From Paludibacter sp. (GTDB lineage Bacteria > Bacteroidota > Bacteroidia > Bacteroidales > Paludibacteraceae), in contig JAFLKK010000019.1 in the NCBI GenBank assembly GCA_019163375.1, positions 308,730 through 372,729 of the forward strand: a DNA stretch of 64,000 bases, read 5' to 3'. This document shows positions 18,091 to 64,000 of the stretch, piece by piece (position 1 is the stretch's first letter; each line of letters opens with the position of its first letter). The position numbers and the translations under genes were made by a program. The notes under the pieces are model-generated. The model was not told the origin of the DNA, searched no databases, and worked only from the letters and a program-made list of their open reading frames with translations.

Positions 18091-18095
18091 AGATT

Positions 18096-19897: not shown

Positions 19898-19900
19898 TGA

Positions 19901-20524
19901 TTATTGATTGAAAGTCATTTGTTTACCCACCGAATCTGCGTAAAATTCAGTATAGTGTTGCTGAATAGATTTTAGGTCGAAAGCCCCTTCGGTATATTCC
20001 CTAATATGAAAATAGATACCCGGTTTTGGATTTGAGAAATAATCAATCAAATTCACTAAAAATACCACTTGTACTGCGTTTTCCTTGTTTCTCAGAATGC
20101 GTTCCAATCCTCTTTCAAACTGTATGCTCTGATTATGCAGACTTTGTATTTCCCCCTGCGGGAAAATGAGCACCATATTTTCCTTATCTGTCAGTAAGCC
20201 AGAAGTATAATTCAAAGTTTCCACAATGCTTTTTGTACTCTTATTCACCGAAAAACCACCCGTAAAGTTGAAGAACCAATACTTGCGAAGTTGTTCTTCA
20301 AGCATCATAAAATGGAACTTACGATGCAGCACATTCTGATTGATATACATTGCCCAAAAGCCATCCCACCAGCTTATGTGATTAGAAATAAGTAAAACAG
20401 GAAGGCTTCTGTCCTTAAATTCTCCTATTATTTTCACAGTGCTATTGTGCCTCCTAATTAGAAAACCGGCATACCACTTGAAAAATGGATATACGATGAA
20501 ATTATGTTTTGCTTTTAGTATCAT
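19901..20524 (-). CDS. PlsC-type acyltransferase, probable carotenoid glycoside acyltransferase (CruD-like)
   Basis: The 207-residue membrane-associated acyltransferase has the HX4D motif NHISWWDG at about residue 48 and the block III-like FPQGEIQS at about residue 123, both characteristic of the LPLAT superfamily. It is shorter than housekeeping PlsC. Its start overlaps the cruF stop (ATGA-type), and it ends three bases before the glycosyltransferase start. By analogy with Chlorobium CruD and staphyloxanthin assembly, it probably esterifies the sugar of the carotenoid glycoside; a general lipid role is the alternative. Confidence 0.78.
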   Translation of the reverse strand: MILKAKHNFIVYPFFKWYAGFLIRRHNSTVKIIGEFKDRSLPVLLISNHISWWDGFWAMYINQNVLHRKFHFMMLEEQLRKYWFFNFTGGFSVNKSTKSIVETLNYTSGLLTDKENMVLIFPQGEIQSLHNQSIQFERGLERILRNKENAVQVVFLVNLIDYFSNPKPGIYFHIREYTEGAFDLKSIQQHYTEFYADSVGKQMTFNQ

Positions 20525-21159
20525 TGTGTTAGCTTAAACAAGATATATAATGATAAGAAAAATAGGAATTGACACCCCAGTATTTGTAAGGCTAATTTAT
20601 TTTGAGTTTTGATATTTAATATTTTAAGTACGGAATGGAAAATCAGCGCCAAAGCAAACCAGGCCATGTAGTTCTGAAAAGGAATGATTTCGTTTTTCCA
20701 ATGCCACATATCTAGTTTGGGTGCTACTTGTTCCAAAACGAGGTCGTACAACAACATAATTGAAGCAGCTACTATTATTTTGAAAACGCTGTGAAGCTTC
20801 CACCTTTCAACCACTGCCGAAGTGGTATAAAGCATAAAAAGCCAGTTTACGCCAATAATGAATGGCGTTTCAAATAATTTAAGGCCTAAACCGTTCCCGT
20901 AACTGTAGTAACCAAATATTTGTCCTGTGGTTACGCCAATTGCCTCAACTGTAAAGCTTATAACGTATATTGACAAGAAAAACAATATTGTTTTCAAATC
21001 AATTTTACCTGAGTGGAAGAACATGAGTGCTACAAAACTTAAGATGAGTGCAAAGGGAATTAGTTTTATAAACAGTGGAAATGTAAACGGTAAAGCCATA
21101 CCGATAACGCCTACAGTATAAAAAATGACGAAAAATATACTTATTGCTTTATACCTCAT
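20521..21159 (-). CDS. cruF: CruF-type carotenoid 1',2'-hydratase (DUF422 family)
   Basis: An integral membrane protein of about 212 residues with six or seven hydrophobic helices. The diagnostic stretch GQIFGYYSYGNGLGLKLF followed by IIGVNWLFMLYTTSA, and the later LEQVAPKLDMWHWK, mark the family that hydrates the open psi-end of gamma-carotene or lycopene at C1'. I start at 21159 (MRYKAISIFF), giving a 19-base gap to crtYcd; the track start at 21198 would overlap that gene. Because CruF needs an uncyclised end, its presence argues that the product is monocyclic. Confidence 0.85.
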   Translation of the reverse strand: MRYKAISIFFVIFYTVGVIGMALPFTFPLFIKLIPFALILSFVALMFFHSGKIDLKTILFFLSIYVISFTVEAIGVTTGQIFGYYSYGNGLGLKLFETPFIIGVNWLFMLYTTSAVVERWKLHSVFKIIVAASIMLLYDLVLEQVAPKLDMWHWKNEIIPFQNYMAWFALALIFHSVLKILNIKTQNKLALQILGCQFLFFLSLYILFKLTQ

Positions 21160-21178
21160 GCTAATATCTTCAAAATTA

Positions 21179-21874
21179 TTATGCTCGTAAGCCAACACTA
21201 AAAATTTTCAGTTTGTCTCTTAATAATAGGCTGAATAAAATAAGACTAAATGCATAGCCAAAATCTTCAATAGGGATTGTTAGAATACGTATCCCCAGGT
21301 TTTCAGTGTTATCGTACCACACAACAGGTTCGGCTATAAAACTGCCGGTTAAAATAGCATTTACAAGTATAAATGGAATAAGTATCACCAGAAATGTGCA
21401 GTAATAATTATTCATCATGTTGCTTTTGTCGAAAAATGAGAACAAGAGGACCAGAATTACCAACGAGAAAATATATGTTGTGTAGGATTTTTCAAGATTA
21501 AATATTACTATACTGAAAGACAGCAAAATCAAACCGACAGAAAGATAGGTTGTCAATCTATTCCTAATTCGAAATTGGCTAAAATACAAAACAATAGCAT
21601 CGTGTAAAAAAATACTTGCATAAGGAATAATAATAAAAAACAACCATTCTTCTATTGGTAATTTAAAGAATACGATAGTTGAATGATAACGCGGATTAAA
21701 CCCCCATACTCCCAATTTGGTGAAATAAATATCAAATGTAATATAAAACAATGCTACGATAATCAATGACGGAAATAGATATTTCCATTGCTTGTAAAAT
21801 TGAAGTTTTTTGTCAAAACTCAAAGTCAAAGGGACTAAAATGGAGGAAAGTAATAATATTGAATATAACGGCAT
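21179..21874 (-). CDS. crtYcd: Lycopene cyclase, fused CrtYc-CrtYd type
   Basis: The 231-residue membrane protein contains two successive lycopene-cyclase domains, the fused form of the heterodimeric actinobacterial CrtYc/CrtYd. Each half carries the proline-glutamate motif: LPIEEWLFFIIIP at about residue 73 and IPIEDFGYAFSLIL at about residue 207. It makes beta-ionone rings from psi-ends. In this operon the partner CruF suggests that one end is left open. It ends 19 bases before cruF. Confidence 0.92.
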   Translation of the reverse strand: MPLYSILLLSSILVPLTLSFDKKLQFYKQWKYLFPSLIIVALFYITFDIYFTKLGVWGFNPRYHSTIVFFKLPIEEWLFFIIIPYASIFLHDAIVLYFSQFRIRNRLTTYLSVGLILLSFSIVIFNLEKSYTTYIFSLVILVLLFSFFDKSNMMNNYYCTFLVILIPFILVNAILTGSFIAEPVVWYDNTENLGIRILTIPIEDFGYAFSLILFSLLLRDKLKIFSVGLRA

Positions 21875-21877
21875 ATC

Positions 21878-22351
21878 TCAACTTTTAAAATATCTGAATG
21901 GAAAAACCAATAGGCCATAATTATGAAAATCTTTCTTGTTCTTGGGCCAATGGTGAGCGGTGTGTGCTTTGATAATTGCTCTGATATAAAAATTCGGATT
22001 CTTTCTTAAAAATGGAATCTGTAATCGATTATGAATAATTATATCGTGAATAATAAAATAGGTGAAACCATATAAAGTAATGCCAATGCTTATATAAACC
22101 AAAGGAAATAACTGAAATGAAAACCCGATAATCATTAGTAAAATGGCTGGTATGGCATATATTAAAAAGAACAAGTCGTTTTTTTCAAATCGTTTATCTT
22201 CGGTTTTTACTGGCAAAGTATGCTGGTGGTCTTTTCGGTGATGATCCTTATGCCATTTCCACAAAAAACCATGCATTATGTATTTATGGTTCGACCATGC
22301 CACAAATTCCATAAAGAAATAAGAAATGATTAGTAATAGGATGTTTATCAT
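21878..22351 (-). CDS. crtZ: Beta-carotene 3-hydroxylase CrtZ (fatty-acid hydroxylase superfamily)
   Basis: A 157-residue di-iron membrane hydroxylase. The histidine cluster is complete: NHKYIMHG, WHKDHHRKDHQH, IIHDIIIHNR and AHTAHHWPKNK, on a frame of four hydrophobic helices. It adds a 3-hydroxyl to the beta ring using O2. It is three bases from crtYcd. An oxygen-requiring step in what looks like an anaerobic-type lineage is notable and suggests microaerobic conditions or oxygen tolerance. Confidence 0.92.
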   Translation of the reverse strand: MINILLLIISYFFMEFVAWSNHKYIMHGFLWKWHKDHHRKDHQHTLPVKTEDKRFEKNDLFFLIYAIPAILLMIIGFSFQLFPLVYISIGITLYGFTYFIIHDIIIHNRLQIPFLRKNPNFYIRAIIKAHTAHHWPKNKKDFHNYGLLVFPFRYFKS

Positions 22352-22364
22352 GTGTTATTCTCTT

Positions 22365-22838
22365 TTAATTAAGTAGATAGTAGCTTAAATTGAGCATGGA
22401 GGCAAAGCTTACCCATAATAAATATGGAATATTGATATATGCTGTTATTGGTTTGATTTTGTAAAACCTAATCATCATTAGCACAATGCTCAGCCATAAT
22501 AAGACAATTTCGGCAAATGCAAAACCAATTTTATTGAAATAGAAAAAAATAAAACTCCATGCAAAGTTTAAAGCAAGCTGAATGAGAAAAGTCAGCATCG
22601 CAAAATTTCGTTCTTTGCTTTTTTCTTGTTTCCAAATTAGATAAAAGGAAATTCCCATAAGTATGTAAAGGGTTGTCCAAACAGGTCCAAATAGCCAATT
22701 GGGCGGATTGAACGATGGCCTATTAAGCGTTGCGTACCACCCCGGAATAGCTTCTGATGTGAACATTCCTGCGAAAGCTCCTATGCTCAAAGGCAATATG
22801 AGAGACAATATAAGTTTGATAATGTTAGATTTTGTCAT
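22365..22838 (-). CDS. tspO: TspO/MBR family protein (tryptophan-rich sensory protein)
   Basis: The 157-residue, five-helix membrane protein has the family core SEAIPGWYATLNRPSFNPPN and WLFGPVWTTLYILMGISFYL, then NFAWSFIFFYF. TspO binds porphyrins and, in Rhodobacter, tunes photosynthetic carotenoid genes (crtK). It is often found in carotenoid clusters, as here. A link to oxygen or porphyrin sensing is plausible. It sits 13 bases before crtZ. Confidence 0.94.
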   Translation of the reverse strand: MTKSNIIKLILSLILPLSIGAFAGMFTSEAIPGWYATLNRPSFNPPNWLFGPVWTTLYILMGISFYLIWKQEKSKERNFAMLTFLIQLALNFAWSFIFFYFNKIGFAFAEIVLLWLSIVLMMIRFYKIKPITAYINIPYLLWVSFASMLNLSYYLLN

Positions 22839-22843
22839 TAGAT

Positions 22844-23296
22844 TTATTCATTTATTTCCCACCAGTTTACATCGTCTATTCCCAATACTAATTGATATGC
22901 AGCAACTTTAATCCGAAAGATCGCACAATCTTTTGATGATAGAAAAGTGCGTTGTTCAGGATGTTTAAACACGTGCGATTCAAATGCCGGTTCAAATGCT
23001 TCATTGTTTAGCTCTTCGGCATTACCAAAAGCTGTTAATACAGTTATGTCTTGTTGTCTTATATTGTTAGCACATCTGTTTTCGAACAAAACAGCAACCT
23101 TTCCATTTTTTGTCAGGTTATTATATTTGCGGGTACTTCGGTATGTTGCAAAAATAAGCTCTTTGAAATCATCTGACGGAGTGATAGCAACCAAACTCGC
23201 GTGAGGTTGTCCTTCGCCCTCTGTGGCCAAAACTGCGAATGTACAGGATTGAAGTGCTTCTTGCACATAAGTCTCAATAGTAACCGATTTATTCAT
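22844..23296 (-). CDS. Pyridoxamine 5'-phosphate oxidase-like flavin-binding protein
   Basis: A protein of about 150 residues with the split-barrel FMN-binding fold: FAVLATEGEGQPHASLVAI, FATYRSTRKYNNLTKNGKVA and an IFRIKVAAYQLVLG strand near the end. I start at 23296 (MNKSVTIETYV); the track start adds nine residues and would overlap the small ORF before it. It lies between the small membrane ORF and tspO, within the carotenoid operon. It could be a flavin- or haem-handling enzyme; its substrate is not known. Confidence 0.8.
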   Translation of the reverse strand: MNKSVTIETYVQEALQSCTFAVLATEGEGQPHASLVAITPSDDFKELIFATYRSTRKYNNLTKNGKVAVLFENRCANNIRQQDITVLTAFGNAEELNNEAFEPAFESHVFKHPEQRTFLSSKDCAIFRIKVAAYQLVLGIDDVNWWEINE

Positions 23297-23306
23297 GTGT
23301 ACTTCT

Positions 23307-23495
23307 TTAATGTCCGCTATCACTATCGTACGAATGCATTAATTTGTCAGCATAAGCCAAAAGAACTGCCGATATATGAAAAACGATATGAATTCCAATT
23401 TGCAGCAATGCATCTTGCAGCGGAATGTTATGTATATCAACAAATGTTTTTAAAAGATGCAAGATACTTACTAACCATATTGATAAAAACACCAT
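23307..23495 (-). pseudogene. Short membrane ORF resembling the C-terminus of UPF0114 (YqhA) proteins
   Basis: The 62-residue ORF starts seven bases after the idi stop and contains two hydrophobic segments. Its tail LLQIGIHIVFHISAVLLAYADKL resembles, from memory, the C-terminal end of the YqhA/UPF0114 family, whose members are about 170-180 residues. The first two thirds would then be missing, with stop codons directly upstream. It may be a relic kept in frame in the operon, or a genuine small membrane protein. The family link needs a profile search. Confidence 0.4.
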
Positions 23496-23501
23496 TAGTT
23501 A

Positions 23502-24023
23502 TCAATTTGTTTTTGTAATTAAATCGCTTACACGTTCAATTATTTTTTTAAACCAGACAGTATAGTTGTTTGGATTCTTTTGAATGTCCCGGATTAAATC
23601 GTCGCAGCTAATATATTTATATTCTGCTACTTCATCGGAGTTGATATTGGGGATTAGATCTGTTGTTCCTATAAAAACATGATCGAGTTCATGTTCGGTA
23701 AGCTCGTTATCCAACGCCTCTTTGTATGTGAAACTAAACAACTCTTTTAATGCACAGTGCATTCCCATTTCTTCTTTCAAACGGCGGTTTGCCGCATCTA
23801 TATTGCTTTCGTTGGGGAACGGATGCGTGCAGCAAGCATTTGTCCACAACCCACCAGAGTGATACTTGTTAAATGCTCTGCGTTGCAACAGCCATTCACC
23901 AGCCGAATTAAAAATAAACACTGAAATGGCTCTATGTAATAATGCTTTTTTATGGGCTTCTGTTTTAGCCATTAATCCGATTTCATTATCCTTTTCATCA
24001 ACTAATATAACATTTTCTTCCAT
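23502..24023 (-). CDS. idi: Isopentenyl-diphosphate delta-isomerase, type 1
   Basis: A 173-residue Nudix-fold enzyme converting IPP to DMAPP, the starter for carotenoids. It has TKTEAHKKALLHRAISVFIF, the active-site cysteine in TNACCTHPFPNES, and the Nudix-like ANRRLKEEMGMHCALKEL, then the ELTEHELDHVFIG metal/Glu region. Type 1 needs only metal ions, unlike the flavoprotein type 2. It follows crtB by 12 bases. The operon carries its own supply step for C5 units. Confidence 0.95.
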   Translation of the reverse strand: MEENVILVDEKDNEIGLMAKTEAHKKALLHRAISVFIFNSAGEWLLQRRAFNKYHSGGLWTNACCTHPFPNESNIDAANRRLKEEMGMHCALKELFSFTYKEALDNELTEHELDHVFIGTTDLIPNINSDEVAEYKYISCDDLIRDIQKNPNNYTVWFKKIIERVSDLITKTN

Positions 24024-24035
24024 TTGCGTATTCTT

Positions 24036-24878
24036 TTAAATAATATTGAGTTGGAATTTTAAATATGCTTTACAGAGTAACATTAGTTTGGTTGAGTCTG
24101 AAACCCGAATCCGTTTTTCCAGTAATTCATTGGCCGGAATAATCTTCAAATTTTGCAATAATTTTGTATAATAAATAAAGGCTATATAAACGGCAAGTTT
24201 TGATTTTCCGGGTAACCTGTTGATGCCTTCTTTTGCTTCTTTAAAATCATTTTCAATATCTATAATTAAATCATTTTTTATGTCTTCATTAAAGCTATTT
24301 GTATTAAATTGAGGGAAGTACGTTCTGTCTAAATCTTCAATATCTGCTTTCAAATCGCGCAAGAAATTTACTTTCTGGAAAGCAGATCCCAATTTCATAG
24401 CCGGTTTTTCTAATTCATTGTAAAGTTGTGTATTCCCATTTACAAATACCATTAAACACATTAGACCAACAACATCTGCCGATCCATAAATGTATTCTTT
24501 TAATTCAGAATTATTCCTATAAATTTGCTTGTTCAAATCTGTTTTCATGCTTTTTAAAAAAGAGTCAATCAGATGAGTGGGTATGTTGTATTTTTTTACC
24601 GTAATAGAAAAAGAATGTAATACAGGGTTCATGCTGATTTCATTGGCCATAGCATCATAAAAATCACGCTCAAAATTAGCCAAAACCAGTTTTTGATTTA
24701 TGGAATGAAATGAATCTACAATTTCATCGGCTAACCTTACAAAACCATATATACTATAAATTGCTTGTCGCATTTCCTGAGGCAAAAAGCTTACAGCTAT
24801 AGAAAATGAAGTGCTATACCTTTGGGTAATTATCTTGCTCGTTTTAAAAGATATTTCAGTGTATAAATCCATTGTCAT
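24036..24878 (-). CDS. crtB: Phytoene synthase
   Basis: A 280-residue trans-isoprenyl diphosphate synthase (head-to-head type) that joins two GGPP to phytoene. The first Asp-rich motif is VRLADEIVDSFH at about residue 50, preceded by RYSTSFSIAVSFLP; the second is FLRDLKADIEDLDRTYFPQ at about residue 175. It is the first intact gene of the carotenoid operon. ATG codons at 24878 and 24872 are both possible starts. No clear promoter box directly precedes it, so transcription may begin ahead of the pseudogene remnant upstream. Confidence 0.94.
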   Translation of the reverse strand: MTMDLYTEISFKTSKIITQRYSTSFSIAVSFLPQEMRQAIYSIYGFVRLADEIVDSFHSINQKLVLANFERDFYDAMANEISMNPVLHSFSITVKKYNIPTHLIDSFLKSMKTDLNKQIYRNNSELKEYIYGSADVVGLMCLMVFVNGNTQLYNELEKPAMKLGSAFQKVNFLRDLKADIEDLDRTYFPQFNTNSFNEDIKNDLIIDIENDFKEAKEGINRLPGKSKLAVYIAFIYYTKLLQNLKIIPANELLEKRIRVSDSTKLMLLCKAYLKFQLNII

Positions 24879-52479: not shown

Positions 52480-52495
52480 GTTTTAGTGGAGCTGG
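52480..52495 (-). other. att-like repeat at the ssrA 3' end
   Basis: The 16-bp GTTTTAGTGGAGCTGG overlaps the last nine bases of tmRNA and seven bases beyond. It is identical to 49366-49381. Confidence 0.65.
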
Positions 52496-52880
52496 AGGGA
52501 GTCGAACCCTCGTCCAAACAAGGAAATAATAAGCTTTCTACATGTTTATCTTCGCTTAAGTTTTCGAGTGTAGGCAAGACCGAAGCCACCAACCTGCACC
52601 TTATCCTTTTTATTTCATCGCGCCTCCAAGGCTAAGCGCAACTATCCCCGATTTAGCTGCATCTCCATATCAAATTGCCTCGAGGCGAGGGCATTTGGGA
52701 AATGTCTCGTTCTAGTACCTAGTACCAGAATTAAGCTTATCTACTGTGATTCGATTAAGCAGCAAGAGCGTAGTTATTTTCGCCAGTTATAAGTTTGTGT
52801 TCCGAGATTTACGAGCCAGCTTCACAACGCTCGACATGCTTACATATCAGTTCTACCTGCTGTCAAAACCAAACAGCCCC
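52487..52880 (-). ncRNA. ssrA: Transfer-messenger RNA (tmRNA)
   Basis: A 394-base one-piece tmRNA that rescues stalled ribosomes. The 5' end GGGGCTGTTTGGTTTTGACA pairs its GGGGCTG with CAGCTCC at the 3' end (one G-U), followed by discriminator A; CCA is not encoded. The T-arm GAGGGTTCGACTCCCTC is perfect. The tag frame reads GGC GAA AAT AAC TAC GCT CTT GCT GCT TAA, i.e. GENNYALAA, as in Porphyromonas-type Bacteroidetes. Boundaries come from the acceptor stem. The 62-residue plus ORF over it is a shadow. Confidence 0.97.
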
Positions 52881-53070: not shown

Positions 53071-53349
53071 TTAGTGACAAATTAATCTATTATGTTTTGC
53101 AAACAAAATGTTACCATCATCTGCTAATACCAATAAACGTCCAGCATCCTGTTGATTTGTTTTCATACCTTGCTCCATTTGAGCAAGGTTAGTTTCAACA
53201 TACGATGAAAGAGAATTATCGCCAGCCATGTAAACCAAGACTGTTTTTTGCACTTGCTCATTGAGTTCATCTTCCCTGCAACTATTAAAACAAAAGCTTA
53301 ATATGAATATAAAAAGATAGATAAAATAAGACTTTGATATCTTCATCAA
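53071..53349 (-). pseudogene. Truncated clostripain-family (C11-like) lipoprotein, N-terminal part only
   Basis: A 92-residue ORF with a lipoprotein signal (FILSFCFNSCREDE) followed by KTVLVYMAGDNSLSSYVETN and LAQMEQGMKTNQQDAGRLLV, the typical start of Bacteroidetes clostripain-related peptidase lipoproteins (usually 350-400 residues). After LLVLADDGN it stops early, before the catalytic His-Cys region. No continuation was seen in the 190 bases before ssrA. Probably a deletion remnant at the ssrA-proximal edge. Confidence 0.65.
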
Positions 53350-53386
53350 TGTTTATTTTAAATCATTTCAATGTGATAAAAAAAAC

Positions 53387-53965
53387 TTAAAACATCACCC
53401 CAACACCTAAAGACAACGAATGACGTACACTTGTGACAGATATTAAATTCCATGATTGACTATCCGATATGGATACATAAAGAGGAGTTTCATTAATTTG
53501 CTTAAGATTATATCCCAGTTGAAAGTTTAATCCAAAACGGCGACCAAACATTTTTTTATACCCTACTCCTGCATCAAACATTAATCCTGAATTTGCATAA
53601 GAATTTTTTATTCCAAACCCTAAATTTGTAAATAAATATGTTCTTGGATGAGTTATCACAAAAGGAGTATAATGCAACGATGCAAAAACGGGCAGGGTAT
53701 TAAATCCCGGATTTTCGTATCTGTCGGCACCTATACCGACACCTGCCGAGATGGATTTACTAAAATCATACAAACTCGTAAGGTGGAGCGATTTTCCGTA
53801 TAGGTTTACATCCTTACGTTTAAGAGTCAGGTAACTAGTCGTTGATGACAAACCGTAGAGATAATGAATATCTGTTACGAAGTGGATTTTTGACTGAGCA
53901 CTGACTTGATAACTACCAATAAAACATTGTGCAATTACCGCTAAAATAATAATTCTTTTTTTCAT
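53387..53965 (-). CDS. Outer-membrane beta-barrel-like protein (unrecognised)
   Basis: A 192-residue protein with a signal peptide (IILAVIAQCFIGSYQVSAQ) and alternating strands ending in an aromatic/hydrophobic terminus (SLSLGVGVMF). Segments such as SAGVGIGADRYENPGFNT and YLFTNLGFGIKNSYANSG look like porin-type strands. No family recognised beyond small OMP. It is last in a row of such genes, 19 bases after the next one. Confidence 0.7.
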   Translation of the reverse strand: MKKRIIILAVIAQCFIGSYQVSAQSKIHFVTDIHYLYGLSSTTSYLTLKRKDVNLYGKSLHLTSLYDFSKSISAGVGIGADRYENPGFNTLPVFASLHYTPFVITHPRTYLFTNLGFGIKNSYANSGLMFDAGVGYKKMFGRRFGLNFQLGYNLKQINETPLYVSISDSQSWNLISVTSVRHSLSLGVGVMF

Positions 53966-53984
53966 ATTCTTTTTTTTTGTAAAT

Positions 53985-54641
53985 TTAGAGATAGCCTCTT
54001 AAGCCTATAAATATTGAGTTATATAGTTTTGTTTTTGAAGGTAAATGTTCATCTAATGAAACTCCATCTACTATCACCGAACGACGTTTTGAATAAACAT
54101 CCTGATTGGAAAGTTCAAAGCCTACAAAGATGCCACCAGCACCAGCTCTCGACCCGCACTGAATAGCAAACTTATTTTGCCAGTAAAATCTAGCAAGTTT
54201 GAAGTCACCTTTGGCTCTGTCCGTCCAAACGGTTTGCCCTTTGTATGGCTTCTGTGTGGCCTGATAAACAACATCAAACACCTCATAAGTTAATGGTTGA
54301 ATCATTATTCCGGGTTCAATATATAAACTCCAAAATCTATTATTCTCTTTTAGAATAGGAAGTGAAAAACGCACCGATGGGGTAAGCAAAAAGTTTAATA
54401 AATCAATATCATCAATCCACCATTTGTAGTCTTTATTGGAGTCACCATAGTATCCTCCGGTTCTAATTGTTTGAAATCGATAGTTTAATGATATAGTCAA
54501 ATGACGATTTAATTTGTACCCTGTTTCAACATCAATCTGGTCGCCTTTACTGTTTATACCACCGCTAAAGCCATAAACTTTTTTTTGAGAAAATGCACTC
54601 GTGCTTAAAAACAGGAATAAAACAATAATCTTTGTTTTCAT
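53985..54641 (-). CDS. Outer-membrane beta-barrel-like protein, paralogue A1
   Basis: A 218-residue exported protein (signal VLFLFLSTSAFSQ). It is a clear paralogue of the gene at 56460-57116: the last two thirds are nearly the same (IEPGIMIQPLTYE, KPYKGQTVWTDRAKGDFKLA, NQDVYSKRRSVIVDGVSL, IFIGLRGYL), while the first 60 residues differ strongly. The pattern of amphipathic strands and a terminal aromatic suits an 8-10-stranded barrel. Function unknown. It is six bases downstream of the next gene. Confidence 0.72.
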   Translation of the reverse strand: MKTKIIVLFLFLSTSAFSQKKVYGFSGGINSKGDQIDVETGYKLNRHLTISLNYRFQTIRTGGYYGDSNKDYKWWIDDIDLLNFLLTPSVRFSLPILKENNRFWSLYIEPGIMIQPLTYEVFDVVYQATQKPYKGQTVWTDRAKGDFKLARFYWQNKFAIQCGSRAGAGGIFVGFELSNQDVYSKRRSVIVDGVSLDEHLPSKTKLYNSIFIGLRGYL

Positions 54642-54647
54642 AAAGGT

Positions 54648-55223
54648 TTATGCGTTCTTATTTAAAAAGGTATAACCAAATCTTAAATGCAGATTTAACG
54701 CTACTTCGCTCTTGTTATCAACATATCCGGCACGTTTCGCAAACAGATATCTATATCCCAGGCCGATTCCCGTTTCAAAATTAATGTGTTCTCCAATATG
54801 TCTTCTAATTCCCCAGGTAGGAATTATTGAAATATCACTAACTATTGATACATTATCGAAATTTGAAATGGTAAACCAATCGGGGTGAAAACTGGTTTTG
54901 AGAGATAGGAAGTTACCTGTGTTATTCTCAGTTTTCCGTTTCTTTGAATTTCTTTTTTCCAGATTGTAGTAAAGTCGGGGCTCCAGTGTCAAAACAGGAG
55001 CCATTACGAATCCTGTTGTATTGTTATATGAACTACCCCATATTCCACTATCAAATCCAATCTCACTTCTGAGTGCGATAGTGTTTGTAAGTTTTGTTTC
55101 ATTGTTAGCCCAAATGCCAAATAATCCGACCTGAACTCCATACACGGATTTCTCAACACTTGCGTTCTGGGCTTTACCCAAAAATGATACGCAAATAAAT
55201 ACGACTGCTAAATAATATTTCAT
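54648..55223 (-). CDS. Outer-membrane beta-barrel-like protein, paralogue B1
   Basis: A 191-residue exported protein (signal LAVVFICVSFLGKAQ). About 95% identical to 57138-57698: only about nine substitutions by eye, and a five-residue longer C-terminus (LNKNA) because the copy has TTT TAA where this has TTT TTA. Strands such as GIRRHIGEHINFETGIGLGY and LHLRFGYTF suit a barrel. It is the middle gene of the duplicated block. Confidence 0.72.
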   Translation of the reverse strand: MKYYLAVVFICVSFLGKAQNASVEKSVYGVQVGLFGIWANNETKLTNTIALRSEIGFDSGIWGSSYNNTTGFVMAPVLTLEPRLYYNLEKRNSKKRKTENNTGNFLSLKTSFHPDWFTISNFDNVSIVSDISIIPTWGIRRHIGEHINFETGIGLGYRYLFAKRAGYVDNKSEVALNLHLRFGYTFLNKNA

Positions 55224-55245
55224 AAAAATTGTGTTTGTTTATATT

Positions 55246-55848
55246 TTAAAGAATTATGTGTAGAGTAATGGACGTATCAATATCAAGTACTTGATCTTTG
55301 AAACGATAATTTATTGTTGAGAGTTTACTGTTCATTAAATTGGTAATGTCTAAGGATGAGTATCCAAGTGCAGCAGATAGTTTCAACTTATCGGTAATTG
55401 GAACAGCCGCTCCAACTCTAATCGAATAGTAGTTGTTATCAAGCGTTTTGGTTGGATTCCATGTTTTTTGCTCAGCAAAATATGTTTCGCCAGACATACG
55501 TGCAATTCCCATTTCTGTATCTAAAAATAGATCTAAATCGTTTGGTAAACGATAGTAGAAACGTGGGCAAATTCCAAGCATACAATAATTCCCTGTATAG
55601 TTCCACTCTTTATTTGGCGATCTTTGGTATAATCCATTTCCTGCTATTTTACCTAACCCCAAACGAGCTTCTATAGCAAGAAAATGAATTTTTGGAATAG
55701 CTAACTCATAACCCAAATGAATATCTCCAGCCAAAGGACTTGAATCTGTAACCCCTAAGACTGTAATACCTACATTTAAACTACTCTTTTGTGAAAAAGC
55801 TGAACTAGTAATTAGAACTACACAGCTCAACAATAAATATCGTTTCAT
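55246..55848 (-). CDS. Outer-membrane beta-barrel-like protein, paralogue C1
   Basis: A 200-residue exported protein; I start at 55848 (MKRYLLLSCVVLITSSAFSQ), which exposes the signal peptide at once. It contains NVGITVLGVTDSSPLAGDIH, GICPRFYYRLPNDLDLFLDT and a C-terminal QVLDIDTSITLHIIL. The same tail recurs as a relic at 57730-57775. Function unknown. Confidence 0.68.
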   Translation of the reverse strand: MKRYLLLSCVVLITSSAFSQKSSLNVGITVLGVTDSSPLAGDIHLGYELAIPKIHFLAIEARLGLGKIAGNGLYQRSPNKEWNYTGNYCMLGICPRFYYRLPNDLDLFLDTEMGIARMSGETYFAEQKTWNPTKTLDNNYYSIRVGAAVPITDKLKLSAALGYSSLDITNLMNSKLSTINYRFKDQVLDIDTSITLHIIL

Positions 55849-55913
55849 TAATTTTGTAAAAATTATCTTTTTGATCTTTAACACGTGCGGCAGCTATTAT
55901 TTACAATTGAATA

Positions 55914-56333
55914 TTAAAATTTATACCTTAGTCCCCAAGAGCTTTGCATAATTGTGGAATGCTCTGTATCAAATGTTGGTTGCAATTCAATATGTAACGA
56001 AAAATTATTGAACTTTTCGAAGGGAGTAAATTGAATACCAATCGGGACAATAAGTCCATTGTAATAATTAGCAACCACACCTACTCCTGCATAGATATTA
56101 TATTTGTCTTTATTTACGAAGTTGTAACACAAGACTAATTCCGGTGTCAAATCATCAGCTACAGTATTACTATACAATCTCAATTCGCTCCACACCTTTC
56201 CCGAGAAATTGTAACTTAATCCAATTTTAGAAAGACTCGAAGAATAATACGAAACGCTAATTTGTGAAGATACTTTGCTACTCATAAAGGTGATTACACC
56301 TAATAGAAATAAAATTTTAATAGATCGTGTCAT
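55914..56333 (-). CDS. Small outer-membrane beta-barrel-like protein
   Basis: A 139-residue protein with a signal peptide (FLLGVITFMSSKVSSQ) and repeating beta strands ending SSWGLRYKF, the usual aromatic C-terminus for BamA recognition. Not a paralogue of A or B as far as I can see. It lies between the two duplicated blocks, separated from A2 by 126 bases of AT-rich DNA. Confidence 0.65.
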   Translation of the reverse strand: MTRSIKILFLLGVITFMSSKVSSQISVSYYSSSLSKIGLSYNFSGKVWSELRLYSNTVADDLTPELVLCYNFVNKDKYNIYAGVGVVANYYNGLIVPIGIQFTPFEKFNNFSLHIELQPTFDTEHSTIMQSSWGLRYKF

Positions 56334-56459
56334 AAAAGTTTTTTTATAAATTATTTGTATTTGTCGTAAAAATGCGATTCATTGAACCGTGTAAGCATTG
56401 TCTAATCACCTGCGCTAGCCTGAAGACAATCACAGCTAAAATAATCATCATCTTTTTAT

Positions 56460-57116
56460 TTAGAAATAGCCTCTTAAGCCTATAAATATTGAGTTGCATA
56501 ATTTTGTTCTCGTGGGCAAATAATTGTTTAACGAAACTCCATCTACTATCACCGAACGACGTTTTGAATACACATCCTGATTGGAAAGTTCATAACCTCC
56601 AAAGAGCGCAACATCTTTCGACCGGAACTGAATCGCAAATTTATTTTGCCAGTAAAAGCGAGCAAGTTTAAAGTCACCTTTGGCTCTATCTGTCCAAACA
56701 GTTTGCCCTTTGTATGGCTTCTGTATGGCCTGATAAGTAACATCAAATGCCTCATATGTAAAGGGCTGAATCATTATTCCGGGTTCAATATATAAACTCC
56801 AGACTGTATTATTCTTTTTTAGAATAGGAAGTGAAAAACGCACTGAAGGAATAAGTAAAATATTGTTTACATCAATATCATCAATCCTCCATTCATAGTT
56901 TTTATTGGAATCTCCATAGTGTCCTCCATCAGTCACAATTGTTTGAAACCGGCAAGCTAGAGAAGCCGTAAAAAAACAATTTATTTTACACCCCATCTCA
57001 ACTCCCATCTGATAGCCAAGTTTGTTTACACACCCGCCAAAGCCAAAAACGGTTTCTTGAGAAGATGCAATCGCACTAAAAAAGAATAGCGATAAAACAA
57101 TGATCTTTGTTTTCAT
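56460..57116 (-). CDS. Outer-membrane beta-barrel-like protein, paralogue A2
   Basis: A 218-residue paralogue of 53985-54641, with signal VLSLFFFSAIASSQ. The C-terminal two thirds match closely (WSLYIEPGIMIQPFTYEAFD, KGQTVWTDRAKGDFKLA, VDGVSL). The N-terminal region is rich in extra cysteines (FGGCVNKLG, GCKINCFFTASLACRF) absent from A1. Function unknown. Confidence 0.72.
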   Translation of the reverse strand: MKTKIIVLSLFFFSAIASSQETVFGFGGCVNKLGYQMGVEMGCKINCFFTASLACRFQTIVTDGGHYGDSNKNYEWRIDDIDVNNILLIPSVRFSLPILKKNNTVWSLYIEPGIMIQPFTYEAFDVTYQAIQKPYKGQTVWTDRAKGDFKLARFYWQNKFAIQFRSKDVALFGGYELSNQDVYSKRRSVIVDGVSLNNYLPTRTKLCNSIFIGLRGYF

Positions 57117-57137
57117 AAAGGTTTATGCGTTCTTATT

Positions 57138-57698
57138 TTAAAAGGTATAACCAAATCTTAAATGCAGATTTAATGCTACTTCGCTCTTGTTATCAACATA
57201 TCCGGCACGTTTTGCAAAGAGGTATCTATATCCTAGCCCGATTCCCGTTTCAAAATTAATATGCTCTCCTATATGTCTTCTAATTCCCCAAGTAGGAATT
57301 ATTGAAATATCGCTAATTATTGATACATTATCGTAATTTGAAATGGTAAACCAATCGGGGTGAAAACTAGTTTGAAGAGACAGGAAGTTACCTGTATTAT
57401 TTTCAGTTTTCCGCTTCTTTGAATTTCTTTTTTCCAGATTGTAGTAAAGTCGGGGCTCCAGCGTCAAAACAGGAGCCATTACGAATCCTGTTGTATTGTT
57501 ATATGAACTACCCCATATTCCACTATCAAATCCAATCTCGCTTCTAAGTGCTATGGTGTTTGTAAGTTTTGTCTCATTGTTAGCCCAAATGCCTAATAAT
57601 CCCGCTTGAACTCCATACACGGATTTCTCAACACTTGTGTTCTGGGCTTTACCCAAAAATGATACGCAAATAAATGCGATTGCCAAATAATGTTTCAT
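57138..57698 (-). CDS. Outer-membrane beta-barrel-like protein, paralogue B2
   Basis: A 186-residue near-copy of 54648-55223 (signal LAIAFICVSFLGKAQ), ending in RFGYTF with a terminal Phe. Identity is far higher than for the neighbouring A1/A2 pair, which hints at recent gene conversion in this part. Confidence 0.72.
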   Translation of the reverse strand: MKHYLAIAFICVSFLGKAQNTSVEKSVYGVQAGLLGIWANNETKLTNTIALRSEIGFDSGIWGSSYNNTTGFVMAPVLTLEPRLYYNLEKRNSKKRKTENNTGNFLSLQTSFHPDWFTISNYDNVSIISDISIIPTWGIRRHIGEHINFETGIGLGYRYLFAKRAGYVDNKSEVALNLHLRFGYTF

Positions 57699-57729
57699 AA
57701 AAATTAAGTTTGTGTTTGTTTATATTTTA

Positions 57730-57775
57730 AAGAATTATACGTAGTGTGATAGACGTGTCAATATCACGTAATTTA
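57730..57775 (-). pseudogene. C-terminal relic of a third duplicated barrel gene (C2)
   Basis: The minus-strand frame CGT GAT ATT GAC ACG TCT ATC ACA CTA CGT ATA ATT CTT TAA reads RDIDTSITLRIIL and a stop. It matches the end of the protein at 55246-55848 (LDIDTSITLHIIL). It sits in the same place relative to B2 as C1 does to B1, showing that the duplicated block once reached into a third gene. Confidence 0.75.
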
Positions 57776-57840
57776 TTTTATATAAATTCTCTTATTATTT
57801 TTTCACAATTTTCATACCTTTCCATTCTGTACTGTATTAA

Positions 57841-58797
57841 TCACTCTTTCACGAATACTTTTCTTTCACTAACAGCAGACGTTCTAAAAAAACCTAAAGC
57901 ATTACCCGATAGGTTAGATGGAGGACTTGTTGGACTGGGCGTGTAGGCACCTCCATCATTTTCGAACTGCGAGATGACTGATTTGTAAAAATTATATGCG
58001 CCGGGCGAGAGCGAAAGTAGCCTTATGGTAGCCATAGATCCTGCTGAAGGATAATAGAAGTCTTCGTCGCTCACAGGACTAATTCCATCATCAATGTTTA
58101 ATCCGTTTACATAAGCGGGTAAATATTCATCGTCAAGAATAGAAAAACTCCAGACTCTGCTTGCATCTGATATAAGACCATTAATGTCATCATCCCCAAA
58201 ATCCATCATATAGTAATTCTTTTCATTACGTGGTTCTTTAAAATAAATATAGGGTGCTAAAAAATGATCTCCATCTTTGGATAGTGTCCTTGTTAGAAAC
58301 TTAACAGAGTCAATGATTGCTACATTTGGCATACTATCGGTTGCCATCACTATTTTATCCTTATACTTAACGTGTAATGTATACTTATTACCCGGAGTTC
58401 CTTTGATTTTGGTTGTATAATAAACTCCCCGAAAATCACTCGAATATGAACTAGAACTATTAATTGTATCTACAACTCCTGAGTATTTCTTTATCGTAAA
58501 GTATTCAAAAAACCATTTTGGATGAACCTCTATAGTCGGACTAAAAGCTTTTAGTGTATCGACACACCCTTTGTTATCTGAAATTATAACCAAAGCATCT
58601 GCAATACCAGTATTAGCAGAAACTTTATTACCACTAGGAGTACTTAAACTTACCCTGACAAAATAGGGTCCCTCCTCATTGGTTATTGCTCCCGCAAAAA
58701 CGATACGGGCATCGCTATCCTCTGTTTTAATTGTAAAATTATCGGTACATGAAAAAAGTAGTAGTGCGCTGATGAATATAAAAAACAATTTGTTCAT
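57841..58797 (-). CDS. DUF4249 family lipoprotein
   Basis: A 318-residue lipoprotein (signal FIFISALLLFSCTDN) with the DUF4249 pattern: IVFAGAITNEEGPYFVRVSL near residue 33, GTPGNKYTLHVKYKDKIVMA near 135, and NYYMMDFGDDD. The family is found in Bacteroidetes as the partner of TonB-dependent receptors, probably on the cell surface or periplasmic face. It follows the TonB gene by 12 bases. The substrate is unknown. Confidence 0.88.
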   Translation of the reverse strand: MNKLFFIFISALLLFSCTDNFTIKTEDSDARIVFAGAITNEEGPYFVRVSLSTPSGNKVSANTGIADALVIISDNKGCVDTLKAFSPTIEVHPKWFFEYFTIKKYSGVVDTINSSSSYSSDFRGVYYTTKIKGTPGNKYTLHVKYKDKIVMATDSMPNVAIIDSVKFLTRTLSKDGDHFLAPYIYFKEPRNEKNYYMMDFGDDDINGLISDASRVWSFSILDDEYLPAYVNGLNIDDGISPVSDEDFYYPSAGSMATIRLLSLSPGAYNFYKSVISQFENDGGAYTPSPTSPPSNLSGNALGFFRTSAVSERKVFVKE

Positions 58798-58809
58798 ACT
58801 TATTTGTTA

Positions 58810-61206
58810 TTAAAATGAGAAATTATAGGTTACAGAGGGTAAAACACCATATAGATATAGCATTGAGGTTTTTGCTTTGGTGAGGTCATACTTATCCGCA
58901 CGAGTATAAATAGAGAATACATTATGTCTGCTATAAACATTGTTTATTGAGAATATCCATTCCGATTTCCATTTATGTTTATTAGATGAATGGCGTGTAA
59001 GTGAAAGATTTAATTCATGAAAAGGTGGTGTCTTATATCCGTTTCGTTCGGTATAATAATTGAAAGATGCACCGTAATACTGAAAAGATCCTAAAGGAAC
59101 TGTCAGATTACTACCTGAAATATAGGCGAATGAGCTAGACAGTGTATATCTCGAATTTAAATCGGTGTACATCATAAGTTTCAGATTATGGCGTTTATCA
59201 TAGGCTGCAGGGTATGATTGATTATTATTTATACCTTCAATTTTGTTCCATGTTTTTGAAAGCGTATAACTTAACCACCCCTTCACCTTACCAGTCTTCT
59301 TTTTGATAAATAATTCCATTCCGTACGACTTTGCCACTCCTGATTTTATTTGTGACGAAATTGCATCATTCATAAAAACATTGGCATTGTCGATAAAATC
59401 AATTACCCCATCCATTTTCTTGTAATAAACCTCAGCAAAGGTTTCAAACATATTATCTGTACTGTTATGATAATAACCGGCACTAAACTGATCTGAGGAT
59501 TCAGGAGTTATATTCCTGTCGACAGATGCCCAAATATCCGTAGGCATACCTATATTGGAATTCGACAACAAATGGATATTCTGGTGCATTTTGCTATAGG
59601 ACAGTTTGACTGCAGAAATATCTGATAATTTAAAGTTTAGCAACAAGCGCGGTTCCGGCTGTAAATATGTTTTTGTAACTTGTCTCGCTGAATATACTGT
59701 AGAATCGACCGGCTGCTTGTTGCCTTGGTTATAGGTATAGGTAGTCAATGGTCCCAATGAACTAAAAGCCACCAGCCTGCAACCTCCTTTTATATTAAGT
59801 ATCGGACTAATGTTAAGCTCTGTCTCCCAATAAACTGCCGATTCAATGGAATTTCGGTTTTGCATAGAGGCAGCAGTAATAACAGACTGCTCATTAATAG
59901 GTGTGATGGTTCCAGGCGAATTGTGTAAATATCCAAATGATAGACCATACTTCATTGCCACATTGTCCGACAATGTATGTTCGATATCATTTTTAAATTG
60001 TAAGTTACTCATGTTTGCTTTCCAAAGAAAATTGCGCACATCCGATTTAAGGTAGTAACTATACGAATAGTGGCTATACGCCAATGTGGTATTGGAAAAA
60101 ATCGTTGGAGACAGAATATTGTTTAAGCGTATCGTAGCAGCATTATTTCCCCAGTCCAGACTATAATTATCGCTGAAGTTTTTTAAATAAAAATGATCTT
60201 TCCCTGAGTAAGCAGAAACGTACAACCTGCTGTAATTACTCAGTCTGAAATTAGTTTTTGCATTCAAATCATAAAAACTAACTTCATTCCCTTTTTTAAA
60301 ATCATTTAGTGCCGGAATTATCGAATTAAGGTTTGCTGCCATATTTGCAATGCTTCCTGCATTACTATACCGACCTGATACTATAAATGATGATTCTCCT
60401 TTTTTCAACGGACCTTCTACCGATAAGCGTGAAGATATAAGCCCAACGCCACCGTTAACTTTATATTCCTGATTATTGCCTTCGCGCATTCGAATGTCAA
60501 CTATGGATGACAATCTACCGCCATATTGAGCAGGAAAAGCACTTTTGATTATTTCGGCACTTTGCACAGCATCAGGGTTAAACGTAGACACAAACGAAAG
60601 AGCATGGTTAGGGTTATAGAGCACTGCTTCATCGAGTATAATCAGGTTTTGATCATACGACCCACCTCTTACCGAAAAACTATTGGTACCTTCGTTGGCC
60701 ACAGCAATTCCGGGAAGCGACTGTAAGGAGCGTAATACATCCACCTCGCCTGCTAATGCGGGTAGCCTTTTGATTTCAGCTATAGAGATTCTCTGAGTTC
60801 CCATAACGTTTGCCGATATATTTTTATTCATATCACCTGTTACAATTACCTCCTTTAAACTGATGTTTAAGGGTGACAACATAACATTAATAACCGTATC
60901 GGCATGTAAATCAACATCAATCACCTTCATTTCAAACCCCACACATGAATAATTGAGTGTTGCTTTACGTTCTTTTATGGTGGCGGTATAAAACCCATAG
61001 GAGTTCGATACCACACCACTACTCCCCCCCAATACCCCTACACCGGGTAGCTTTTCCCCGGTTTTGGAATCACAAATAATACCCGACACGGTATATCCGC
61101 TAGCTGATAACGAGCTAGACAACAACAATATGAATACTGTTGATTTAATTATGCTTTGATATTTCAATTTCAATAGCTTTTTCGATTTGATTTTGAGAAA
61201 ATACAT
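58810..61206 (-). CDS. TonB-dependent receptor with carboxypeptidase-like N-domain
   Basis: A 798-residue outer-membrane receptor: signal (TVFILLLSSSLSASG), a CarboxypepD_reg-like domain (SGIICDSKTGEKLPGVGVLG), the plug (PALAGEVDVLRSLQSLPGIA, NSFSVRGGSYDQNLIILDEA, AQYGGRLSSIVDIRM) and a 22-strand barrel ending SVTYNFSF. The ATG at 61206 overlaps the previous gene by 62 bases; a TTG nearer the signal (about 61173) is an alternative start. Paired with DUF4249, as in many Bacteroidetes nutrient or signalling loci. It is smaller than SusC-type receptors and has no SusD partner. Confidence 0.92.
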   Translation of the reverse strand: MYFLKIKSKKLLKLKYQSIIKSTVFILLLSSSLSASGYTVSGIICDSKTGEKLPGVGVLGGSSGVVSNSYGFYTATIKERKATLNYSCVGFEMKVIDVDLHADTVINVMLSPLNISLKEVIVTGDMNKNISANVMGTQRISIAEIKRLPALAGEVDVLRSLQSLPGIAVANEGTNSFSVRGGSYDQNLIILDEAVLYNPNHALSFVSTFNPDAVQSAEIIKSAFPAQYGGRLSSIVDIRMREGNNQEYKVNGGVGLISSRLSVEGPLKKGESSFIVSGRYSNAGSIANMAANLNSIIPALNDFKKGNEVSFYDLNAKTNFRLSNYSRLYVSAYSGKDHFYLKNFSDNYSLDWGNNAATIRLNNILSPTIFSNTTLAYSHYSYSYYLKSDVRNFLWKANMSNLQFKNDIEHTLSDNVAMKYGLSFGYLHNSPGTITPINEQSVITAASMQNRNSIESAVYWETELNISPILNIKGGCRLVAFSSLGPLTTYTYNQGNKQPVDSTVYSARQVTKTYLQPEPRLLLNFKLSDISAVKLSYSKMHQNIHLLSNSNIGMPTDIWASVDRNITPESSDQFSAGYYHNSTDNMFETFAEVYYKKMDGVIDFIDNANVFMNDAISSQIKSGVAKSYGMELFIKKKTGKVKGWLSYTLSKTWNKIEGINNNQSYPAAYDKRHNLKLMMYTDLNSRYTLSSSFAYISGSNLTVPLGSFQYYGASFNYYTERNGYKTPPFHELNLSLTRHSSNKHKWKSEWIFSINNVYSRHNVFSIYTRADKYDLTKAKTSMLYLYGVLPSVTYNFSF

Positions 61207-62182
61207 CTAAAATAATGTGTTTATTGACAACAATTGAAGGAACACCCCAAAACCCTTTGTCATGTAGTTGATTAATATTGTTGATAATTGAATGACATGT
61301 AGTTGAATCCTTATAGTCATTCACGAATTTTTCTTTGTTTAGCCCTATTTTAGTAGCAATAGTGAGAATATCATTACCCGATGGTTTACCGTTAATCATT
61401 GAAAGTTGATTATACATTTCCCAAAATCGATTTTGTTTTTTTGCACATTCCAAAGCAGTTGCAGAATGTGTTATATCTCCCGAAAAGTTGATATATGCAA
61501 ACCGAATTTCTTTGTTGTATTTCTTATATAAGTTTTCAAATACAGAATTGGTTGCTTTACAGTTATTGTTTTCCAAATCAGTCAGAATCCATACTGTAAT
61601 TTTTGATTTGTTATTACCCTTAAATGCTGCTTTTACATCAGATAGATCTACTAAAGGAGGATCAGGAGGTGTTAGATTTGATTTTATCTGATATTTTTTC
61701 TTGTTCTTCTCAATATAGTTTTCCAGTAAAAACTGCTTATACTTATCTTTTAATAGCATTTGTCCTCTGGCAGAATTCACGTCAAAATATTCAAATGTAT
61801 TATTTATAACCGGTATCCCTGTTTTATCGTATTTACACTTTTGAGCAAACTTTTGCAAATTTTTAGCATTTACATCTTTATACACAACTGTATTCAAAAA
61901 AACATCCGGAGTCAATTGCTCCTTAGCTGCTTCGTTTTCAATGATTTTCTGATTTATCTTTTCCTCAATTGCATTTTTCCTCATCAAATACACTTGAAAA
62001 AGAATATCATACAATTTTTTATTTATCCCTTTATCAATTTCCGACATGTATATTTTGTCATCGTTAACAACGGCAATTGGTTCATCTAATGAATTTGCGT
62101 ACGAATTCTTTTCTTTTTTACATGAGAGAAATGATATTACAATGATAAGAGTAACGAGGGTTGTCCAATATTTACATTTCAT
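61145..62182 (-). CDS. Lipoprotein with SurA-like N-region and DsbA-like thioredoxin fold
   Basis: A 345-residue lipoprotein (signal LIIVISFLSCKKE). The N-terminal part (EPIAVVNDDKIYMSEIDKGI, then KNAIEEKINQKIIENEAAKE) looks like the SurA/PrsA chaperone N-domain. From about residue 185 a DsbA/Thioredoxin_4-like domain follows (ITVWILTDLENNNCKATNSV, ECAKKQNRFWEMYNQLS, GFWGVPSIVVNKHII with the cis-Pro). The usual CxxC is reduced to one cysteine (NNNCKAT). So it probably binds or delivers a substrate rather than oxidising it. Order in the operon: it precedes the TonB gene. Confidence 0.72.
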   Translation of the reverse strand: MKCKYWTTLVTLIIVISFLSCKKEKNSYANSLDEPIAVVNDDKIYMSEIDKGINKKLYDILFQVYLMRKNAIEEKINQKIIENEAAKEQLTPDVFLNTVVYKDVNAKNLQKFAQKCKYDKTGIPVINNTFEYFDVNSARGQMLLKDKYKQFLLENYIEKNKKKYQIKSNLTPPDPPLVDLSDVKAAFKGNNKSKITVWILTDLENNNCKATNSVFENLYKKYNKEIRFAYINFSGDITHSATALECAKKQNRFWEMYNQLSMINGKPSGNDILTIATKIGLNKEKFVNDYKDSTTCHSIINNINQLHDKGFWGVPSIVVNKHIILDVFSQNQIEKAIEIEISKHN

Positions 62183-62241
62183 ATTTTTATTGTTTAAAAA
62201 GTAGACGAGAAATAAAACTTTTTTCTCGTCTACTTACTTAT

Positions 62242-63165
62242 TTATCTTGCTCTAAACATATGTATTTTAGTGTTTTGACCGGGCTCAATTATACTTTTAG
62301 CATCTTCTAGCCAACCAGAAGCATCTGCTCTTGCAAGATTATTCCAATTATACCAGCATTGATTGGCATTCTTACTGTCCTCATCATCTATAGAAATCCA
62401 CCCTTTCCCTCTACTATTTTCAGCTGTACTCCCAAAAACACCGTATTGTATCCCTAAATCCGGAAAGGATTCCATCCCATTTTTGATGTCTTGATCATAA
62501 ACATAAAAACATAATGTCGTGTTTTTATTTTGAGTAATTCCACCACCTAGTTTCGTCCTTATTTTATCTTGGTTTATTACTTCTCCCTTTAATATAATCT
62601 TATTTTGATTGTTACTGTCTTCATTATCAAAGAATCTCTCTATCATATTATCCCAACCATAATCGAGTGATAATACAGCATATCTTGTATACTTATAGCT
62701 GCTGAACAATGATTTAGGGACTAGACATAGTTTTAATGTTACATTTCTATCTACTGTATTGCCTCCAGTCCATCCTTCTGTACCATTTGCATTTCTAGTA
62801 TCTTCACAATCCATAAATATTTCTAAAACATCGTAAGATGCAGTAGGTGCATAAGTACCTGCAATAACACCAACTTGCTTTCCTACTAAACTGCTAACAG
62901 CCGAGACGTTCTTCCTCAATCCATTAGGAGTGTCACCTATTTTTTTGATTGTTGCCAGATATTCATCCGAAGCCCGGAACTCTATTTTTGGAGCAGAATC
63001 GGTTGAATCGGTTTCTATCTTTAGATTTCCATCTACATAAGCATACTCCAACTTATTAATTGATGTGGTAGCATCTTTTTGACTACTTTCTATCAATTCA
63101 TTGTTTTTTTCGGTACAACCTATCATTACAATGATAGACATTATTGCAATTGTAATTTTTTTCAT
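62242..63165 (-). CDS. Secreted lipoprotein with repeated acidic-Asn motifs, unknown family
   Basis: I start at 63165 (MKKITIAIMSIIVMIGCTEK, 307 residues), because this puts the lipobox IGC at once; the track's 48 extra residues are untranslated leader. The body has three similar segments, CEDTRNANG, NEDSNNQNK and DEDSKNANQ, at about residues 121, 182 and 262, and a related DQDIKNG near 224. They could be metal or glycan-binding loops of a repeated beta fold. I recognise no family. First gene of the accessory operon, 59 bases before the SurA/DsbA-like gene. Confidence 0.65.
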   Translation of the reverse strand: MKKITIAIMSIIVMIGCTEKNNELIESSQKDATTSINKLEYAYVDGNLKIETDSTDSAPKIEFRASDEYLATIKKIGDTPNGLRKNVSAVSSLVGKQVGVIAGTYAPTASYDVLEIFMDCEDTRNANGTEGWTGGNTVDRNVTLKLCLVPKSLFSSYKYTRYAVLSLDYGWDNMIERFFDNEDSNNQNKIILKGEVINQDKIRTKLGGGITQNKNTTLCFYVYDQDIKNGMESFPDLGIQYGVFGSTAENSRGKGWISIDDEDSKNANQCWYNWNNLARADASGWLEDAKSIIEPGQNTKIHMFRAR

Positions 63166-64000
63166 TTTTTTATCATGAATTAAAATATTCCCTACTCTCT
63201 CAAAGCTTTTCAGGGTTGTCGCTCTTTTTTTCACGAAACCTGCCTGCAATATGCAAGACAAGATTCGCCAATCATGTCTGTAAACCATGTCAGACTTATT
63301 GGAGTTCAAATTAATTTATACCTTTACGGCGCCTTCTTGTAGTGTTAGTGAGTAATCAAGTTAATTGGTTTTAAAAGCTGCGAACTTTTCATTAGCCTTG
63401 CAAGAAGGCTCTTTCGTATTTATATAGGTGGCGAGCCTCGTATAAATACTGTATTATTTTACTCAGCTAATAACCTCGGGTCATTAAATAAGTATGTTTC
63501 TTTATTTTACGTACAACTTTAAATAGCATAAGTCCAGAGACTTGTACTAGCGTGAAAGCAATTCAATAACCGGCTCCGCCTTTTGTTATGCTCTATTGTA
63601 GAATCAACTACTATGCAATAAGGTAGCAAAAAATTGACTAGCTAAAGCCAGACTAGCTACAAAGCGTATTCAAAGATTATAAAATAGCACTAATCAATTT
63701 GATTTGATTGGTGTATTTTATAATTGAATGCATCTCTATACTCCTCCTGTTTCCATTCCTGTGCACACAGGAATTTGAAATTACGATGCGGATTCTACTC
63801 AGGGTACTTATCCGCACAATCATGAAAAGATGCACCGATTGTTGTTGCTAAGTGATAAAAATAGTTAGTGCATTTTACCTTTTATTATTAGCTATTTATC
63901 CTATTTTTAATCCACTAATTTTCAAATATACTAATATGCAACGATATAGGCAAACTCATTAAGTGAATTATTGATGCAAAAAAGCAATTTTTGTATTATT
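63166..64000. other. Non-coding region with several inverted repeats at the right edge
   Basis: No ORF of note. Structures: GCCTTCTTG (63331-63339) and CAAGAAGGC (about 63400) as a separated inverted repeat; GTATTTATA...TATAAATAC (about 63416-63450); ATTATAAAATA-N-ACTAATCAA/TTGATTGGT-N-TATTTTATAAT (about 63677-63725); ATTCCTGTG-CA-CACAGGAAT (about 63756-63775). A TTAATTTG -7-like box (complement of 63307-63314) could serve the lipoprotein operon, giving a leader of about 130 bases that can fold (GTCTG...CAGAC). Confidence 0.5.

Follow-up and report, generated by a model that had tools for sequence, protein, structure and literature searches.

Results

Gene content of the exported block

Do the genes for exported proteins that lie in a row in this Paludibacter genome form one envelope system, and if so, for what? 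The window analysed here was a stretch of 64,000 nucleotides of Paludibacter sp., whose last base (64000) is also the contig end. A sequence-only reading had proposed a single envelope system of a lipoprotein, a SurA/DsbA-like chaperone, a TonB receptor, a DUF4249 protein and seven small barrels. The one-strand layout was confirmed, as eleven minus-strand genes (ORFs) were present and all products were apparently exported. The order was lipoprotein (62242..63165, 307 aa), SurA_N and DsbA-like lipoprotein (61145..62182, 345 aa), TonB-dependent transporter (TBDT; 58810..61206, 798 aa counted from the first ATG), DUF4249 lipoprotein (57841..58797, 318 aa) and seven small predicted outer-membrane barrels (53387..57698), followed on the minus strand by the 5' remnant of a C11 (clostripain-type) peptidase lipoprotein gene (53071..53349) and, just downstream of the block, by a tmRNA gene with the tag GENNYALAA (52486-52880). 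The block sits 5' of the tmRNA gene, which ruled out an island at that gene's 3' end. A promoter scan returned matches no more numerous than in shuffles. Elsewhere in the window, genes at 16615-24878 resembled by eye those of carotenoid synthesis (desaturase, IPP isomerase, phytoene synthase and hydroxylase).

The lipoprotein encoded first, termed c3, matched nothing in Pfam or NCBIfam and is a new family. It contains three repeats, each with one DxEDxxN motif (residues 119, 180 and 260), and the similarity between repeats was supported by hhalign (P 4e-7 to 6e-5). The predicted structure was composed mostly of strands, with a mean pLDDT of 72 and most core blocks above 80, and this fold had no match in the PDB (best E 0.17) or among viral models (best E 0.054). 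No toxin domain was found in c3 by Pfam, NCBIfam or fold, relatives of the window copy had no MACPF match, and c3 carried no type IX C-terminal sorting domain.

The second protein was matched by Thioredoxin_4 (1e-9), DSBA (1.6e-8) and, below the cut-off, SurA_N_3 (1.1e-4). Its description in the earlier reading as a thioredoxin fold without CxxC was correct for the window copy, in which the active site is NxxC; since 17 of 18 aligned sequences hold CxxC, the DsbA nucleophilic cysteine has been lost here. The TBDT contained CarbopepD_reg_2 (PF13715, 4e-11) and Plug (PF07715, 2.9e-9) domains, with an EVIVTG stretch read by eye ahead of the plug, and its longest reading overlaps the preceding gene by 62 nt. 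DUF4249 (PF14054) was assigned firmly (1.4e-26, 94.2 bits against a curated cut-off of 28.5), and no SusD was detected in Pfam scans of the block proteins. Sequence searches of the PDB with the DUF4249 protein and the TBDT gave nothing useful. The DUF4249 protein was predicted to be mostly all-beta; an Ig/fibronectin-like fold was considered and set aside, the matches being weak (TM 0.2-0.3).

Conservation of the first four genes

The proposal of an eleven-gene system held for the first four genes, which co-occur elsewhere, and failed for the seven barrels, which do not. All four genes, in varying order, were found at 12 loci in 10 Bacteroidales genomes of four families. The SurA/DsbA protein as query matched in 13 of 393 Bacteroidales genomes, some of the matches being DsbA-only or fragments, and in the neighbourhoods of the matches the same c3 family, a TBDT and DUF4249 lay alongside, so that the co-occurrence suspected from the sequence was borne out as a set. 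A c3 profile found nine copies in 7 of the 393 genomes, all nine adjoining a SurA/DsbA gene, a test with some circularity, those same loci having supplied the profile. Profile searches among relatives of the carriers added nine further copies, two of them interrupted by a contig end; each of the seven others, on intact contigs, had SurA/DsbA, TBDT and DUF4249 genes within a few genes, in differing orders. These complete loci are not fully independent, because six of the seven come from one genus, although their c3 proteins, where measured in pairs, were only about 39-54% identical. It is highly probable that the first four genes (57841-63165) are a conserved module. The module is undescribed: no named system or library model among those searched covered the set, in agreement with the earlier remark that no named system with this set is known, and the literature search found no paper that combines its parts, DUF4249 being named in one paper, incidentally. 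The defence library gave nothing convincing, and plasmid records held no c3 and one DsbA-only match.

A second lipoprotein family, c6, can stand in for c3, with which it has only the signal peptide region in common. At c6 loci in other genomes, SurA/DsbA and c6 genes were accompanied by a small LytTR gene, DUF4249 and a TBDT. TBDTs of c3 loci and of c6 loci were separated by a 100/100 branch, and three TBDTs belonging to no group fell on the c3 side. At two loci viewed in full (L045 and L046), a c3 without lipobox and a SurA/DsbA gene were found with small secreted proteins, one of them a Pfam-supported barrel, and with neither TBDT nor DUF4249; two more loci of this kind were truncated. One gene neighbouring c3 at L046 encodes a PKD protein that bears a type IX sorting domain. 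Two or three DUF4249 genes per module were counted at L108, L113 and L051. Matches to the C-terminal region of c6 were also seen inside larger open frames of 628 and 574 aa (L134, G116:C160; L135, G147:C287). A decaying copy was present in a congener (L016, G007:C39, 9314-12026), with a frameshifted SurA/DsbA gene, no c3 found, and a TBDT that is 79% identical and open to the contig end.

Barrel genes and mobile context

The seven small barrel ORFs were present as described, some of them duplicated (pairs 53985/54648 and 56460/57138), with the word barrel backed by Pfam matches below the cut-off (best OMP_b-brl, 4.1e-5). Their inclusion in the system was not upheld, as they were not found in other c3-TBDT loci. 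Moreover, a relative of one barrel occurs in genomes with no SurA/DsbA match (for example G086, 59% identity), and the last two barrels and the peptidase remnant (53108-54641) were 92% identical to the cargo of a module-free mobile element on contig C8 of the same genome, which includes barrels and a full-length C11 peptidase (383 aa). The seven barrels are a separate add-on, a partly shuffled cluster outside the conserved module.

The non-coding spacer at 63559..64000, in which the window contig ends, matched the spacer that lies between MobV relaxase and cargo in two more MobV-type elements of this genome, and two further contigs end inside MobV genes. Given this shared spacer, the 92% cargo match and the contigs ending in MobV, the block is very probably the cargo of a MobV-type mobilisable element whose join to the relaxase was not assembled. 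One MobV-type element of the genome (L120 on C5, 1473-11354) carries a bacteriocin export ABC transporter of the C39-peptidase type, a ResA-like thioredoxin, a second ABC ATPase and a LytTR gene. The C8 element (L121, 345-14655) has an integrase and MobV, with cargo of a DUF6973 lipoprotein, two unnamed lipoproteins, two barrels and the C11 peptidase.

Pairing of the lipoprotein with the SurA/DsbA protein

The SurA/DsbA protein pairs with c6 as well as with c3, and with c3 where the TBDT is missing (L045 and L046), which argues that its partner is the lipoprotein; the two stay paired where the remaining genes change. A link of this putative foldase to the lipoprotein is probable. C147 was invariant in 18 aligned c3 sequences, including the window copy. 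C108 was present in 17 of the 18 and lost in the window copy, which is therefore the sole exception both for this residue and for the CxxC of the 18 aligned foldases. This paired loss fits a disulphide in the client that would be formed by the foldase, although it represents a single lineage. The decayed SurA/DsbA of the congener (G007) also lacks the first DsbA cysteine. An idea that SurA/DsbA absence goes with cysteine-free lipoproteins was dropped, as those of G112 and G185 have five cysteines each. A phylum-wide SurA/DsbA profile search tells little about the fusion, because almost all matches listed were to the DsbA part, often in small proteins.

Between the lipoprotein and chaperone genes, a hairpin with a 14-bp core stem and a 3' T run was observed on the minus strand (62199..62235; z -6.2). 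Stable hairpins were likewise present in most c3 and c6 loci that have a gap after the lipoprotein gene, where the median z was -5.2, against -0.9 in 33 control gaps (Mann-Whitney P 0.0007). L111 had no hairpin there. By eye the hairpin sequences seemed unrelated apart from those of close relatives, and two of the stronger control hairpins (L038 and L054) sit between a lipoprotein gene or its neighbour and the next module gene. The hairpin is probably an attenuator or terminator. Attenuation would be the simplest reading, in which case the lipoprotein would be overproduced relative to the rest, and the lipoprotein looks like the main product of the module.

Acidic tails mark surface lipoproteins in Bacteroidota, where they serve as the lipoprotein export signal (PMC5080379). 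The mean net charge after the lipidated cysteine was -2.5 for c3, -2.0 for c6, -1.8 for DUF4249 and +0.9 for SurA/DsbA, with the lipobox chosen by script and a few calls doubtful. In most close locus pairs, the foldase and TBDT had diverged less than c3 and DUF4249, with a strong contrast in L048/L107 and in L051/L099 (identity 50% for c3, 48-53% for DUF4249, 94% for SurA/DsbA and 90% for the TBDT). The foldase departed from this pattern in the distant pair L112/L113.

Discussion

From the observed gene set, sequence features, hairpin, rate difference and mobile context, we infer a topology, a chaperone-client relation, possible metal binding and a transport direction that together would make the module a TonB-coupled surface receptor, in which an abundant capture lipoprotein has a private foldase. 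We give this reading, the likeliest of those considered, a probability of about 0.4. The SurA_N/DsbA lipoprotein would face the periplasm, hold the chain of the other lipoprotein and, in most relatives, form its putative conserved disulphide. DUF4249 and c3, replaced by c6 at other loci, would face outwards and work with the TBDT. The three acidic DxED sites of c3 may bind metal, a guess from the motifs, and the protein would capture a ligand and hand it to DUF4249 and the TBDT for TonB-driven uptake. Import is preferred over export here, as a TBDT with a surface lipoprotein is normally an importer (PMC10404256). Several observations fit this receptor less well: c3 and foldase occur without TBDT and DUF4249 at the two fully viewed loci; stand-alone LytTR genes beside c6 modules would be unusual in a nutrient importer, as would carriage on a kind of element that bears a bacteriocin-type exporter elsewhere in the genome; the joint cysteine loss comes from a single lineage; and no PDB entry matches the predicted structure of c3.

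Transport in the opposite direction, with the TBDT and DUF4249 as a TonB-using outlet that surfaces or releases the lipoprotein and SurA/DsbA as its periplasmic pilot, is a genuine rival, although we rate it as unlikely. The foldase is tied to the lipoprotein and not to TBDTs, as four further DUF4249 genes of the window genome have TBDT neighbours and no SurA/DsbA. The apparent excess of lipoprotein over machinery and the cargo-like swap of c3 for c6 would also suit an outlet. A precedent is the PopC protease of Myxococcus xanthus, whose secretion depends on the TBDT Oar and on the Ton system (PMC6434023), and how surface lipoproteins of Bacteroidota cross the outer membrane has yet to be settled (PMC12611786). 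However, the ordinary acidic export signal of c3 may suffice alone, the TBDT is almost unchanged between loci whose c3 proteins differ by half, DUF4249 is commonly paired with a TBDT in the absence of this foldase, and the module is too rare for a general exporter. Less probable still is the more specific form of this idea, a dedicated mobile-element-borne outlet or display platform for the module's own lipoprotein, piloted by SurA-DsbA and taking c3 or c6 as exchangeable cargo.

The fast joint divergence of c3 and DUF4249 could instead reflect antagonism, a second genuine rival that we also rate as unlikely. Here c3 or c6 would act against other bacteria, at the surface or after secretion, with the TBDT and DUF4249 as an insensitive target replacement, or DUF4249 as an immunity protein. 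BSAP genes adjoin a resistant target replacement (PMC4999547), and the antibacterial protein BcpT, encoded on a mobile plasmid, becomes active on proteolytic cleavage (PMC9308784); the repeated DUF4249 copies at several loci, the LytTR gene adjoining c6 modules, and the sister elements with a C39-type bacteriocin exporter and LytTR, or with the C11 peptidase, would be in keeping with such a role. On the other hand, c3 has no recognised toxin domain, its conserved acidic motifs resemble a binding site more than a variable warhead, and the TBDTs of c3 modules group together across families and not with other TBDTs of the window genome. That envelope genes simply gathered on a mobile element without working together is very improbable and already disfavoured: the barrels and the peptidase remnant nearby have plainly been exchanged between elements, but the same four genes recur in permuted orders at the 12 loci of four families, and at all seven unbroken loci found through c3 alone.

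As a surface receptor, the module would be closest to SusCD/SusCDE and BtuB-BtuG, in which a TBDT with plug is likewise encoded alongside outward lipoprotein partners. It differs from them by DUF4249 in place of SusD, by a new lipoprotein family as first gene, by the private SurA/DsbA foldase, by the hairpin after the lipoprotein gene and by the very probable mobile-element location in the window. The resemblance to Oar-PopC, by analogy a TBDT possibly serving a secreted or surface protein, is modified by a lipidated partner and the additional DUF4249 and foldase. With BSAP and BcpT the module has in common an envelope protein gene adjoining a possible outer-membrane target replacement, very probable mobile carriage, and a protease gene in a sister element, whereas it has no MACPF domain and has a dedicated foldase. 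Compared with periplasmic SurA and DsbA, a SurA N-terminal region and a DsbA-like thioredoxin domain are fused in one lipoprotein, which is locus-specific rather than general and has lost the nucleophilic cysteine in the window copy.

Bacteroidota are coated with surface lipoproteins, and a compact module of four genes, in which a single lipoprotein goes with one foldase and one transporter, makes their export approachable. It also supplies two unnamed lipoprotein families (c3 and c6) and a functional context for DUF4249. Nature has, moreover, set up an experiment in the window, where the cysteines of foldase and client seem to have disappeared jointly.
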